Assembly (NCBI GenBank): GCA_015522475.1
Contig: WAMF01000001.1
Coordinates: 1-36,053, forward strand
DNA: 36,053 nucleotides
From: Microcaldota archaeon
Lineage (GTDB): Archaea > Micrarchaeota > Micrarchaeia > Anstonellales > J096
Reading direction: 5' to 3'
Shown here: positions 20,094-25,605 of the stretch, in pieces
Position numbering within the stretch: the first letter of the stretch is position 1
Layout: every line of letters begins with the position of its first letter
Translations under genes and position numbers: made by a program
Notes under the pieces: model-generated
What the model was told of the DNA's origin: nothing
Databases searched by the model: none
What the model saw: the letters and a program-made list of their open reading frames with translations, nothing else

Positions 20094-20168
20094 GGGCCTG
20101 TAGCTCAGCCTGGCCAGAGCGCTCGCCTGATAAGCGAGAGGTCCTGGGTTCAAATCCCAGCAGGCCCA
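20094..20168 (+). tRNA. tRNA-Ile(GAT)
   Basis: Full cloverleaf: acceptor GGGCCTG/CAGGCCC, D arm GCTC...GAGC, anticodon stem CTCGC/GCGAG with loop CTGATAA and anticodon GAT, T arm CTGGGTTCAAATCCCAG. The discriminator is A at 20168; CCA is not encoded and there is no intron. Two nt after the discriminator begins the double-hairpin element described at 20171. Confidence 0.97.
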
Positions 20169-20170
20169 TA

Positions 20171-20254
20171 GAAACTTTCTTAGAAAGAAAGTTTCATCAA
20201 GGAAGGTTTAAGTGATATAAGTCCTTCTTGGTTGAACTTCTTCCTAAGAAGTTC
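20171..20254 (+). repeat. Double-hairpin tRNA-trailer element, copy A
   Basis: 84 nt directly after tRNA-Ile. Hairpin 1 (20171-20195) has perfect 11-bp arms, GAAACTTTCTT and its complement, with a 3-nt loop. A spacer of 38 nt contains TTTAAGTG and TTCTTGGT. Hairpin 2 (20234-20254) has perfect 9-bp arms GAACTTCTT/AAGAAGTTC around CCT. A second copy with the same order and conserved blocks lies after tRNA-Ala (25449-25531, minus strand). Each begins 2 nt beyond its tRNA. The role is unknown: terminator, trailer processing signal, small RNA or small mobile repeat are all possible. Confidence 0.75.
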
Positions 20255-20260
20255 ACAAAA

Positions 20261-20328
20261 AAGAAGTTTCATTGAGAAAATTCGGGGATATAAGACCCTT
20301 TAAATCAACCTTTCCTCAGGAGGTTTAG
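20261..20328 (+). repeat. Degenerate third unit related to the double-hairpin element
   Basis: After copy A the sequence repeats its middle pattern loosely: AAGTTTCAT, then GGATATAAGACC, then AACCTTTCCTCAGGAGGTT with imperfect hairpin potential. The similarity is weaker than between the two full copies. GATATAAG here could also serve as a TATA-like box for EF-2, although it is about 100 nt from the start codon. Confidence 0.35.
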
Positions 20329-20390
20329 AAGGAGTTTCTCTCCTGGAAAGTTCGAAAAACTCTGATGCTTGTACAAGATGGGTGAAATGT

Positions 20391-22592
20391 ATGGTAAGGA
20401 AGGAAGTTGTTGTAGACGAAGTGCAAAAGATTATGGATGACCTAATCCACGTAAGGAACATAGCGATTGTGGCACATGTAGACCACGGCAAGACGACGCT
20501 TTCAGACTCGCTGGTAGCTAGAGCTGGGCTTATAAGCAAAGAGCTGGCTGGCCAACAGCGCGTCTTGGACTACGACGAGCAGGAGCAAAAAAGAGGTATT
20601 ACTATCAAATCAGCCAACATCAGCCTAGGGTTCTCCTACGAAGGCCACGAGTATCTTATAAATCTTATAGATACACCCGGCCACGTCGACTTTGGAGGTC
20701 ATGTGACGCGAGCTATGAGGGCAGTAGACGGTGTAGTAGTAGTTATCGACGCTGTGGAAGGCGTCATGCCCCAAACAGAAACAGTCCTTAGACAAGCCTT
20801 AAATGAAAGGGCAAAACCCGTCGTCTTCATAAACAAAGTAGATAGGCTCATAAACGAACTTAAGCTGGACTCGGACGCCATGATAAAGAAGCTGGCAAGC
20901 ATCATTGCCACAGTTAATAAGATAATAAGTGCAAACGCTCCAGACCAATTCAGGAAGGACTGGCTCGTCAGCGTCGAAAATGGAAAGGTTGCTATAGGCT
21001 CAGCTTTCCAAAAATGGGCCATAAGCATAAGCAGCATGCAAAAATCGGGCACAAACTTCAAACAGATATATGAGCTTGTTAGAGAAAACAAACTGGACGA
21101 GCTCGTCAAAAAAGCCCCAGTAGATGAAGTTGTCCTCGAGATGGTTGTAAAGCACTTGCCCAATCCAAAGGAAGCCCAAGCGTACCGTGTGCCTAAGTTA
21201 TGGCATGGTGACCTCGAGAGCGAGGAAGGGAAGGCCATGCTTGCCTGCAATAAAGATGGGCCAACAGTCGGTGTCGTCTTTGGCATACACTACGACGAAC
21301 ATGCAGGAGAAGTCGGAGTTGTAAGACTGTTCTCCGGAAAAATAGAAAAAGGCAGCGAGCTTTACATTGCTTCGAAAATGAAGTATGGCAGAGTACAACA
21401 AGTTTCTGTTTACATGGGACCAGATAGAGTGCCTGTCGATAGAATAACAGCCGGAAACATCGGTGCTATAATTGGCCTTAAAGACATGTACGTCGGTGAA
21501 ACAATAAGCTCAAAGCCTGTGGAGCCTTTTGAGCAGATAAAGCACTACTCAGAGCCTGTTGTTACAAAAAGTATAGAAGCCAAAAATCCGAAGGATTTGG
21601 GCAAGCTCATAGAAGTGCTGAGAGCCATTTCAAAGGAAGATCCAACGTTGAAAGTAGAGCTCAATCCCGAAACGGGCGAGCACTTGATAAGCGGCATGGG
21701 TGAGCTCCACTTGGAGATCATCGAATACAAAATTCGCGTTGAGAAAGGCATTGACATAAAGACAAGTCCTCCGATCGTCGTTTACAGAGAGACTATAGAA
21801 AAACCAACGCCAACTATCGAAGGTAAGAGCCCCAACAAGCACAACAAGTTCTACCTGCACGTAGAGCCTTTGTCAGAGAAGCTTCAGAAACTCATAAAGG
21901 AAGGTAAGACTCCTGAAGGCAGAATAAAAGGCACAAAGCCCTCTCAAGCTGTAATAGATGCACTCATTGAAGGTGGAATGAGCAGAGATCAAGCGAAAGG
22001 TGTATGGGACATCTATGCTGGCAATATGTTTGTAGATGCTACAAAGGGTGTTCAATACCTCAACGAAGTTAAAGAGCTCGTCCTTCAATCATTCGAGGAC
22101 GGCATGCACAAAGGGCCACTAGCCCAAGAGAAAGTGGCCAACGTGATGGTTGTATTAGAAGATGCGACGCTCCACGAAGACAACGTCCACAGAGGTCCAG
22201 CACAAATTCTTCCAGCGATCAAGAAGGCTGTATACGCTGGCATGCTAAAAGTAGGCGTAGACCTCTTAGAGCCTAAGCAAAAGCTCCTTATACAAGTGCC
22301 ACACGAATACAGTGGAGCAGTCCTATCACTCGTAAACGGAAAGAGAGGCAAGCTCCTAAACATGGAGCAAGAGGGCGACCTAACGAAAATCGAAGTGATA
22401 ATCCCCGTAGCTGAGACCTTCGGCTTAAGCAATGAGTTAAGAAGCGCAAGTCAGGGAAGAGCTATTTGGTATTCACAATACTATGGATATGAACCTCTAC
22501 CAAAGGAACTGCAGGCCAAGATTGTAAGGCAGATAAGAGAAAGAAAAGGCCTACCCCCAGAGCCACCAAAACCAGAGGACTTCATGGAGTAA
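20391..22592 (+). CDS. fusA: Translation elongation factor EF-2
   Basis: 733 residues from ATG 20391. GGTGA five nt upstream fixes this start; an in-frame GTG at 20382 would include the binding site in the coding sequence. G domain motifs: AHVDHGKTT (28-36), RGITI, DTPGHVDFGGH and NKVD. Domain IV keeps the diphthamide region DATLHEDNVHRGPAQILPA, with the histidine before RG as the modification site. The C-terminus (RQIRERKGLPPEPPKPEDFME) matches archaeal EF-2. It catalyses ribosomal translocation. Length is normal. A stem-loop with T-run follows the stop. Confidence 0.98.
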   Translation: MVRKEVVVDEVQKIMDDLIHVRNIAIVAHVDHGKTTLSDSLVARAGLISKELAGQQRVLDYDEQEQKRGITIKSANISLGFSYEGHEYLINLIDTPGHVDFGGHVTRAMRAVDGVVVVIDAVEGVMPQTETVLRQALNERAKPVVFINKVDRLINELKLDSDAMIKKLASIIATVNKIISANAPDQFRKDWLVSVENGKVAIGSAFQKWAISISSMQKSGTNFKQIYELVRENKLDELVKKAPVDEVVLEMVVKHLPNPKEAQAYRVPKLWHGDLESEEGKAMLACNKDGPTVGVVFGIHYDEHAGEVGVVRLFSGKIEKGSELYIASKMKYGRVQQVSVYMGPDRVPVDRITAGNIGAIIGLKDMYVGETISSKPVEPFEQIKHYSEPVVTKSIEAKNPKDLGKLIEVLRAISKEDPTLKVELNPETGEHLISGMGELHLEIIEYKIRVEKGIDIKTSPPIVVYRETIEKPTPTIEGKSPNKHNKFYLHVEPLSEKLQKLIKEGKTPEGRIKGTKPSQAVIDALIEGGMSRDQAKGVWDIYAGNMFVDATKGVQYLNEVKELVLQSFEDGMHKGPLAQEKVANVMVVLEDATLHEDNVHRGPAQILPAIKKAVYAGMLKVGVDLLEPKQKLLIQVPHEYSGAVLSLVNGKRGKLLNMEQEGDLTKIEVIIPVAETFGLSNELRSASQGRAIWYSQYYGYEPLPKELQAKIVRQIRERKGLPPEPPKPEDFME

Positions 22593-22685: not shown

Positions 22686-22806
22686 GCAGGGGTCGCCAAG
22701 TCTGGTCAACGGCGCCGGACTCAAGATCAACGCCAGCTTAAAACAAAGCTGGAAATGGGAGATCCGGTCCCAAGTGGGTTCGTGGGTTCAAATCCCACCC
22801 CCTGCA
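22686..22806 (+). tRNA. tRNA-Leu(CAA) with 36-nt intron
   Basis: The gene is 121 nt; mature tRNA is 85 nt. Acceptor GCAGGGG/CCCCTGC, D arm GCC...GGC, anticodon stem CCGGA/TCCGG with loop CTCAAGA and anticodon CAA. The long variable arm (CCC AAGT GGG) is typical of leucine tRNA. T arm GTGGG/CCCAC. The discriminator is A and CCA is not encoded. The intron sits between positions 37 and 38 at 22726-22761. Positions 34 and 39 are the predicted targets of the sRNA at 25717. Confidence 0.95.
22726..22761 (+). other. tRNA-Leu intron with canonical bulge-helix-bulge
   Basis: A canonical 37/38 intron. CUCA (positions 32-35) pairs with UGGG (22756-22759), including one G:U, to make the 4-bp helix. It is flanked by identical 3-nt bulges AG|A at both splice sites (22724-22726 and 22760-22762). 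The interior has a 7-bp stem CCAGCTT/AAGCTGG. The intron begins ATC, the same three bases as the start of exon 2. Confidence 0.85.
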
Positions 22807-24222: not shown

Positions 24223-25446
24223 GTGAAAAAACTTGTAATTGCAGTAGACATCGATGATGACCTCGGGAGAAAAGCAAAGACGAAGGGTCCGTTAATCGGC
24301 AGTAAGGACATTGTAGATGCCGCCACAAGGCTCGCATTAGCAGACCCTGAAGACCCGGATGCAAACGCCTTATTCAAAGCCGTAAAGTTGGCCAATGAGT
24401 TAAAGGGCAAAGGTGAAGACATGGAAGTTGTAGCACTCACAGGACATAAAAATCTTGGTGTAGAAGCCAGTTCAAGAGTAGCTGCGCAGCTCGACATGGT
24501 TCTACAAAAGGTTTCTGCAGATTCTGCTCTGCTTGTAACAGATGGGGCAGAAGATGAAACTGTTTTGCCTATATTAGAGAGCCGGCTGCGTTTAGATGGT
24601 GTGGACGTAGTCTATGTGAAGCAATCAAAGGAACTTGAGAAGACGTACTTCCTTATATTGGAAAAGCTGCGCGATCCCACGTATGCAAAAATTCTATTCG
24701 GCGTACCAGCAGTCCTTCTTATACTCATATCTCTCATGTACGTATTCAACATACCTTGGCCTTACGTCGGTATACTTATTGGTACGTATCTAATAATCAA
24801 GGGCTTTGGTATAGAGGAAAGGCTTTACAACTTCTTTTCCTTTTCGGCTGAGACAAACCCGCATGTTAAGATATTGCTCTCGCTCATATTGCTCCTCTTC
24901 ATTTTAGCAAGTATAGGTGTATCTTATCTTGGTTACATGGATAAAATAAATAGCGGGTACAGTTCATTCATGGCATACATCCATTCTTTAGATATATTGG
25001 TAAACTTTACAGCTATCCTCCTGCTCATTGTGCTGGGAATAAAGTTAATAGACAATTACACTAGAGGCAATCCATACAGGGTACTTACGACGACAAACTA
25101 TCTTATTACAACGTTAGCGTCGCTTGTTATTCTCAAAGTCACGTTTAAATGGATACTTAATGACACTCCACCTTACTTTTCATTCGCAGATACTGTTAAC
25201 ATAACTATTGTGACATTCATCATAAGTTACATACTATACAAGTATGTGAACAGCTTAAAGCGAAACCTGCTAGAATCCCTTAAGTTCAAAAACTACGAAG
25301 TGTATAATATTCACGGGGACTTTATAGGAGTAGTCAATAAAAGAGAAGGCAACACCCTATTCGTGAAAAATCAAATCGGAAAAACTGTCGAGCTACCTCT
25401 TGACAATATCATAGATGTAGAAAAAGAGAAGTTGGTCAGCTTATAG
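24223..25446 (+). CDS. DUF373 family membrane protein
   Basis: 407 residues from GTG 24223. Family members start close to a motif like MKKLVIAVDIDDDLGRKAKTKGP, and the TATA box is 26 nt upstream. Upstream in-frame ATGs (for example 24169) would run across rpoL. The N-terminal cytoplasmic domain (about 1-150) is acidic and contains DIDDDLGRK, DGAEDE and a predicted alternating alpha/beta pattern. From about 160 there are several membrane helices (six or so), then a C-terminal cytoplasmic domain (about 350-407) ending in a small beta-rich segment. DUF373 is widespread in archaea and has no established function that I can name. Divergent from rpoL. Confidence 0.88.
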   Translation: MKKLVIAVDIDDDLGRKAKTKGPLIGSKDIVDAATRLALADPEDPDANALFKAVKLANELKGKGEDMEVVALTGHKNLGVEASSRVAAQLDMVLQKVSADSALLVTDGAEDETVLPILESRLRLDGVDVVYVKQSKELEKTYFLILEKLRDPTYAKILFGVPAVLLILISLMYVFNIPWPYVGILIGTYLIIKGFGIEERLYNFFSFSAETNPHVKILLSLILLLFILASIGVSYLGYMDKINSGYSSFMAYIHSLDILVNFTAILLLIVLGIKLIDNYTRGNPYRVLTTTNYLITTLASLVILKVTFKWILNDTPPYFSFADTVNITIVTFIISYILYKYVNSLKRNLLESLKFKNYEVYNIHGDFIGVVNKREGNTLFVKNQIGKTVELPLDNIIDVEKEKLVSL

Positions 25447-25448
25447 AA

Positions 25449-25531
25449 GGACCTTCTTAGGAAGAAGCTCCACCAAGAAGAGCCTATAAACACTTAAAGT
25501 TTTTCGATGGAACCTTTTTAAAAAAGGTTCC
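25449..25531 (-). repeat. Double-hairpin tRNA-trailer element, copy C (after tRNA-Ala)
   Basis: 83 nt read on the minus strand, starting 2 nt after the tRNA-Ala discriminator. Hairpin 1 (25531-25509) has 11-bp arms starting GGAACCTTTTT with a 1-nt centre. The spacer includes TTTAAGTG and TTCTTGGT at the same places as copy A. Hairpin 2 (25471-25449) is GGAGCTTCTT...AAGAAGGTCC around CCT with one mismatched pair. CTTCTTCCTAAGAAG is identical in both copies. Differences in the arms are partly compensated (GAAAC/GTTTC against GGAACC/GGTTCC), which points to conserved RNA structure. The element ends two nt from the DUF373 stop codon. Confidence 0.75.
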
Positions 25532-25533
25532 AG

Positions 25534-25605
25534 TGGACCCTGGGGGATTTGAACCCCCGGCCTCCCGCGTGCGAGGCGGGCGCTCTACCACTGAGCTAAG
25601 GGCCC
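25534..25605 (-). tRNA. tRNA-Ala(CGC)
   Basis: Minus-strand cloverleaf. Acceptor GGGCCCT/AGGGTCC carries the G3:U70 wobble pair that identifies tRNA-Ala. D arm GCTC...GAGC, anticodon stem CCCGC/GCGGG with loop CTCGCAC and anticodon CGC, T arm GGGGGTTCAAATCCCCC. The discriminator is A at 25534. CCA is not encoded and there is no intron. CATTTAAATG upstream (25637-25646) is the likely TATA box. Confidence 0.97.

Follow-up and report, generated by a model that had tools for sequence, protein, structure and literature searches.

The trailer sequences found behind tRNA-Ile and tRNA-Ala in the window (the whole stretch of 36,053 nucleotides analysed here) belong to a multi-copy, mosaic and widespread family of tRNA-linked palindromes whose presence is polymorphic within the genus, and which is probably a non-autonomous, REP/BIME-like family of elements inserting at tRNA 3' ends. 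The original prediction had described two copies of a double hairpin and had offered three options for them: a structured trailer RNA acting in processing or termination, a tRNA-linked small RNA, and a small element targeting tRNA 3' ends for insertion. The last of these is the best supported, owing to the mosaic arrays in tRNA trailers, the filled and empty states of the site behind tRNA-Ile, and the CCA-adjacent hairpins of Thermococcus; a role as structured trailer or as terminator is possible and less well supported. No published description of the element family was found in the open-access literature.

Architecture of the Units in the Window

Copy A lies on the plus strand behind tRNA-Ile(GAT) (20094-20168, identified by ARAGORN and by Rfam RF00005 with 73.5 bits), the gene of which ends in GGCCCA. 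The dinucleotide TA separates the tRNA end at 20168 from the first element of the unit, H1 (20171-20195), which is by sequence and fold a perfect 11-bp hairpin with a 3-nt loop. It is followed by M (20196-20232), placed by fold and alignment and closed by the pair ATCAAGGAAGG and CCTTCTTGGT, and by H2 (20233-20255), placed by fold; the covariance-model match covers 20196-20255. Copy C is located on the minus strand behind tRNA-Ala(CGC) (25534-25605, ARAGORN and Rfam), ending in GGTCCA, with CT between the tRNA end at 25534 and the start of H1 at 25531. Its H1, GGAACCTTTTTTAAAAAGGTTCC (25509-25531, sequence and fold), precedes M (25472-25508) and H2 (25449-25471), the latter two comprising the model match at 25449-25508, and H2 adjoins the stop codon of a convergent open reading frame that ends at 25446. 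The tRNA calls and coordinates thus bear out the predicted start of both copies 2 nt past the tRNA, in its orientation.

The two units, each of ~84 nt, show the common block order that had been proposed for them and are 76% identical on alignment. The similarity greatly exceeds chance: in a genome search, unit A recovers unit C with E=1.8e-9, and its closest match among the remaining copies of that genome reaches 8e-30. For either unit, no more than one of 200 dinucleotide shuffles folds as well (z of -4.4 and -4.2). The architecture of a unit is H1–ATCAA–M–TTGAT–H2 and comprises three consecutive hairpins, not the two originally described: H1 has a stem of ~11 bp and a 3-nt loop, H2 has a 10-bp stem, and M, which had been taken for a spacer, forms a hairpin of its own, with ATCRA...TTGRT as the closing pair and a core that is TATA-like (for example, GTTTATAAGC). 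Since the units are palindromes, T-rich hairpin arms are present on both strands.

The predicted 84-nt extent of copy A holds for the unit, but not for a stand-alone element, as a decayed second unit continues on the plus strand from 20256 to approximately 20376. According to the array map, it consists of a 3' half of H1 (20256-20270), an M-like segment with GATATAAG at 20287-20294, and degenerate hairpins; a weak model match reaches 20319. Comparison with a congener (G001, locus L341) delimits the whole insert-like array to ~211 nt (20169-20379, plus strand), from tRNA-Ile to the flank GGGTGAAA shared by both genomes. The EF-2 gene (20391-22592, plus strand) lies downstream, with its ATG 222 nt past tRNA-Ile.

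Copy Number and Linkage to tRNA Genes

The window's own assembly (G000; 910 kb, 23 contigs, 88% complete), with which two congeners (G001 and G002) were compared, was searched with a covariance model built on M+H2, with matches counted at E<=0.1. It probably represents a small archaeon of DPANN type, as among the contigs compared the best named match to the window lies at the FtsZ-like gene of the latter, with 80% amino-acid identity to a contig labelled Candidatus Micrarchaeota. Such a genome-wide search for the units had been suggested with the original prediction, and it yielded 40 matches in G000, all of them within ten tRNA trailers, instead of only the two copies first noted; the strong BLAST matches of unit A in this genome are likewise tRNA trailers. 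The arrays follow the genes for tRNA-Ala (CGC, GGC, TGC), tRNA-Val (GAC, TAC, CAC), tRNA-Pro (TGG, CGG) and tRNA-Ile (GAT), and the tenth belongs to a second tRNA-Ala(GGC) locus, located terminally on contig C16. This locus (L006) corresponds to the one on contig C22 (L002), to which it is 81% identical, and the two arrays are built differently, so that the assembly is probably a mix of two related species, contig C16 being, as judged from its sequence, most likely a co-binned relative.

Only 11 of the 44 tRNA genes in G000 end in CCA, which is made up by the CC at the end of the acceptor stem and a discriminator A, and nine of these 11 are followed by H1 at a distance of 0-2 nt, compared with none of the 33 genes with other ends. 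A hairpin is also present behind tRNA-Glu(CTC), its sequence being unrelated to H1. In G001, arrays are found at 5 of the 11 CCA-ending genes and at none of the 32 others. Pooling of both genomes gives 14 of 22 versus 0 of 65 (Fisher p=6e-11, on the assumption of independent tRNA genes, which does not hold for isoacceptors). A dispersed repeat independent of tRNAs was considered and found no support in G000, since all 40 model matches lie in tRNA trailers. Scattered copies unrelated to tRNAs, named at the outset as the outcome that would speak against the prediction, were therefore not observed in this genome; however, both G001 and G002 carry an array behind a gene for an S-layer-type protein as well, and the target in the genus is thus not strictly a tRNA.

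Arrays and Pairing of the Arms

The arrays range from one unit, as in Ala-CGC, to several, as in Val-GAC, Ala-TGC and Ala-GGC. The later units often open with a 3' half of H1 only (such as CAAAAAAGGTTCC or TAAGAAAAGCTC) before continuing into M and H2, and the types of H1 and H2 are combined differently at each tRNA, making the arrays mosaic. The M cores of G000 are all oriented with the tRNA, an arrangement more readily explained by oriented targeting or selection than by random insertion.

The observation in the original prediction that stem bases differ between copies and still pair extends to the types of H1, in whose arms 150 of 151 positions are standard pairs despite the sequence differences; counting was done by a script that started at the base of the stem, because MAFFT misregistered H1 arms of unequal length. 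In the alignment of M+H2, 86% of the cells pair, compared with 39-59% when the partner is slid, and 18 double changes are present versus 8.5 in shuffles. The units are palindromes at the level of DNA, so that covariation may come either from selection on an RNA or from arm-to-arm correction in replication, and the pairing data do not separate the two. The Rfam gathering score is reached by tRNAs only and by no copy of the element.

These features could also be those of a functional structured trailer, in which the T-rich 5' arm of H1 would terminate the tRNA transcript or set its 3' processing, H2 would serve the opposite or next gene, and selection would keep the copies. The nearly perfect pairing of stems that have changed in sequence, the orientation fixed relative to the tRNA, the T-rich arms on both strands with H2 of copy C adjoining the stop codon of its convergent gene, and the arrays behind the S-layer-type gene in both congeners all agree with such a role. 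Nevertheless, the remaining 35 tRNAs of G000 do without the element and have ordinary T-rich trailers, the presence of the arrays is polymorphic within the genus, and arm pairing can also be produced by correction of palindromes in DNA. The shuffling of modules, the copies located in introns and sRNA genes (see below), and the absence from other tRNAs would all be left without explanation, and we regard a functional trailer as an unlikely account of the family as a whole. A terminator role for some copies is nonetheless plausible from the sequence, as H2 of unit C adjoins a convergent stop codon and the arms are T-rich on both strands.

Filled and Empty Sites in Congeners

The site between tRNA-Ile and EF-2 is free of an array in G001, where it reads CCCA-TCACTCCTTGGGTGAAAAT-ATG, so that the start codon of EF-2 is found 19 nt past the tRNA compared with 222 nt in the window, and 9 nt occupy the place of the ~211-nt array. 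The synteny of tRNA-Ile and EF-2 was found in G000 and G001 only and in none of the outgroups examined, so gain is not polarised against loss at this site, and G001 could have lost the array here. For other pairs of filled and empty tRNAs in the two genomes synteny is mostly not preserved. The three tRNA-Val genes of G001 are array-free, and the tRNA-Ala and tRNA-Pro genes carry arrays in both genomes with different H1 sequences. Within G001, near-identical H1s are present at four tRNAs (Ala-CGC, Ala-GGC, Pro-CGG and Pro-TGG). Such a pattern is that of sequences spreading or being homogenised inside a genome, and not that of orthologous RNA parts.

Under the preferred reading of an inserting element, for which we infer insertion, the direction of change and any advantage, a unit would enter 0-3 nt 3' of a tRNA that stays intact. 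Multiplication and reshuffling would follow, either through further insertions or through template switching or recombination between near-identical palindromes, the latter also keeping the arms complementary. We can speculate that some copies, having T-rich arms on both strands, would then have been adopted as bidirectional terminators.

Copies inside RNA Genes of Order Relatives

In other members of the order (families f6 and f8), 20 exact copies were read individually, and 18 of them lie in RNA genes. Twelve are located in tRNA genes, most of them where the 5' splice site of an intron is predicted. Five occupy the interval from D' to C' box of C/D-type sRNAs, with both orientations represented, one is in 23S rRNA, and the remaining two are intergenic. 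Assignment to introns, C/D-type sRNAs and rRNA was by reading of the sequences, partly supported by ARAGORN with introns allowed. Loci L105-L124 and L063-L086 include the tagged hairpin in tRNA introns of the D-loop and the anticodon loop, in C/D-type sRNAs and in a 23S rRNA gene, and in one D-loop case (L109) excision would restore, by sequence reading, a normal D-arm. In one C/D-type sRNA the tagged hairpin is inverted from one genome to another (L107 and L108). In the window itself, tRNA-Leu(CAA) (22686-22806), missed by ARAGORN with default settings, contains an intron-like insert with a small hairpin (CCAGCTTAAAACAAAGCTGG).

The position of the tagged hairpin at the start of predicted tRNA introns, the 18 of 20 exact copies within RNA genes, and the transposition of tRNA introns known in Thermoproteales (PMC4090602) would fit a mobile archaeal intron bounded by a bulge-helix-bulge (BHB), passed between tRNA, rRNA and sRNA genes by an RNA route (splicing endonuclease and ligase), with the trailer copies as off-target landings. 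Against this, no reverse transcriptase was found in ten genomes, inserts in both orientations in C/D-type sRNAs are unexpected from an RNA route, and the trailer copies have neither a second exon nor an evident BHB; such an origin thus appears improbable. The inserts in both orientations were instead counted in favour of a mobile element. The Thermoproteales introns resemble the element as near-identical short insertions across different tRNA genes, and relatives of the element in the order form tRNA introns as well (PMC4090602). Whereas BHB introns lie within a gene and are bounded by the bulge-helix-bulge, the window copies are arrayed 3' of intact tRNA genes with no second exon, and intron-like copies are confined to relatives. 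For these intron-like relatives, the closest parallel, drawn by analogy, is tRNA intron transposition in Thermoproteales (PMC4090602).

Comparison with Known Mobile Systems

REP and BIME sequences are palindromes tagged by GTAG or CGTC that have been proposed to be miniature transposons (PMC3733652). The element shares with them short hairpins that carry a conserved tag at one side and occur as inverted pairs and in mosaic clusters, and it is extragenic and multi-copy (40 model matches). It differs in its tag, which is ATCAA/TTGAT beside the hairpins in all units, in the concentration of its copies at tRNA 3' ends and RNA genes, and in their small number per genome. Having no GTAG or CGTC tag, the element falls outside the definition of a REP given in the literature (PMC3733652). 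A further difference concerns the Y1 (RAYT) gene of the GTAG class: no Y1_Tnp domain (PF01797) was found in G000, which is 88% complete, in G001 or in G002.

Outside this order, Y1_Tnp was found in none of eight of the ten element-bearing genomes (incomplete assemblies), and in order relatives that possess it no TTGRY-tagged hairpin was found near the gene. The reverse transcriptase domain RVT_1 was not detected in ten genomes, also incomplete assemblies. These searches identified no mobilising enzyme, which is a point against the inserting element. Incompleteness, which affects G000 as well, makes these absences only suggestive; a resident Y1 (RAYT-type) transposase or reverse transcriptase is an unlikely mover. 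The one-sided fixed tag on a palindrome and the mosaics containing inverted pairs, both known from REP and BIME (PMC3733652), do agree with a REP/BIME moved in trans by a Y1 transposase of RAYT or IS200/IS605 type. With Y1 genes either absent or present without tagged hairpins nearby, such a RAYT- or IS200-driven REP was rejected, and we consider it very improbable. The target of ISDra2 is TTGAT, which is the one further point of agreement with this route.

Repetitive hairpin-forming and double-hairpin elements of fungal and sponge mitochondria (PMC2800124) resemble the element in several respects: their units have at least one hairpin, they are patchily distributed, they insert into rRNA genes and close to tRNAs, no enzyme is known for them, and close relatives differ in their presence. 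The element is different from them in sequence and domain of life, in its strict position 0-3 nt behind CCA-ending tRNAs, in its inverted tag pair, and in the intron-like copies of its relatives. Beside the two hairpins per mobile unit and the polymorphic insertion of the double-hairpin elements, it shows three hairpins per unit and a filled and an empty site at tRNA-Ile that is not polarised in direction. Archaeal integrative elements that target tRNA genes (PMC8371274) also use the 3' ends of these genes. The element differs from them in its unit of ~84 nt, with no integrase gene and no repeat of a tRNA fragment seen at its far end.

Look-alikes in Thermococcus and Other Archaea

The matches listed for a scan with the tagged-hairpin pattern GAAACTT(N6-14)AAGTTTCATCAA include Thermococcus, Micrarchaeota, Aenigmatarchaeota, Diapherotrites, Woesearchaeota and Altiarchaeota. 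Five of the six Thermococcus-labelled genomes searched contain 8-20 exact copies of H1, and the reversed pattern has zero copies in the genomes searched. The Thermococcus unit is ~300 bp long and is arranged as H1–ATCAAAGTTTGTGATTC...(imperfect palindrome)...GAATCACGAACCTTGAT–H2, with an M of ~240 bp; one full-length unit folds as H1, a long rod and H2 (z of -3.7 versus shuffles). At 20 loci of two genomes, H1 or H2 lies 0-6 nt past the encoded CCA of 13 of 16 tRNAs, a proportion that is not a genome-wide rate, as the loci were picked for holding a copy. H1 is beside the tRNA in five of these 13 cases and H2 in eight, so that either orientation occurs; other copies in the fetched loci have no nearby tRNA. 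The Thermococcus H1 is devoid of a long T-run, a further point against a functional trailer. Single matches in Aenigmatarchaeota (L196) and Altiarchaeota (L176) are also positioned just past apparent tRNA CCA ends. Homology between the window family and that of Thermococcus would rest on short hairpins, tag and layout, and convergence is possible.

As a tentative extension, which we think has a rather low probability, palindromes tagged by ATCAA/TTGAT might target RNA genes throughout the archaea, above all just past the tRNA CCA, and move with no known transposase or reverse transcriptase, possibly by means of the enzymes of tRNA processing or splicing, becoming a tRNA trailer, an intron or an sRNA insert depending on the lineage. 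If this were true, archaea from DPANN to Thermococcus would have in common tiny hairpin elements with a preferred home at or inside RNA genes, and the spread of archaeal tRNA introns, the movement of palindromes without a transposase, and the attraction of mobile DNA to tRNA 3' ends would be tied together. Genetics exist for some Thermococcus species, making both mobility and trailer function directly testable.

Other repeats were seen beside these hairpins. In Thermococcus MAGs (L275-L294; for example, L290:475-810), the ~300-bp palindromes are often followed by another repeat (AGCGCTGGCGGAAG...). In Woesearchaeota (L147, L150, L180, L187 and L203), a recurring block, AACAACCCTTCCGCGAGTTGACGGCGG, is placed directly upstream of the tagged hairpin and resembles another repeat family. 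Bacterial MAGs of Defluviitaleaceae (L125, L129, L135, L143, L146, L151 and others) contain many copies of GAAACTTTTGAAAAAGTTTCATCAAAACTTT, in which the same hairpin and ATCAA tag are found 3' of a GC-rich palindrome, by either convergence or transfer.
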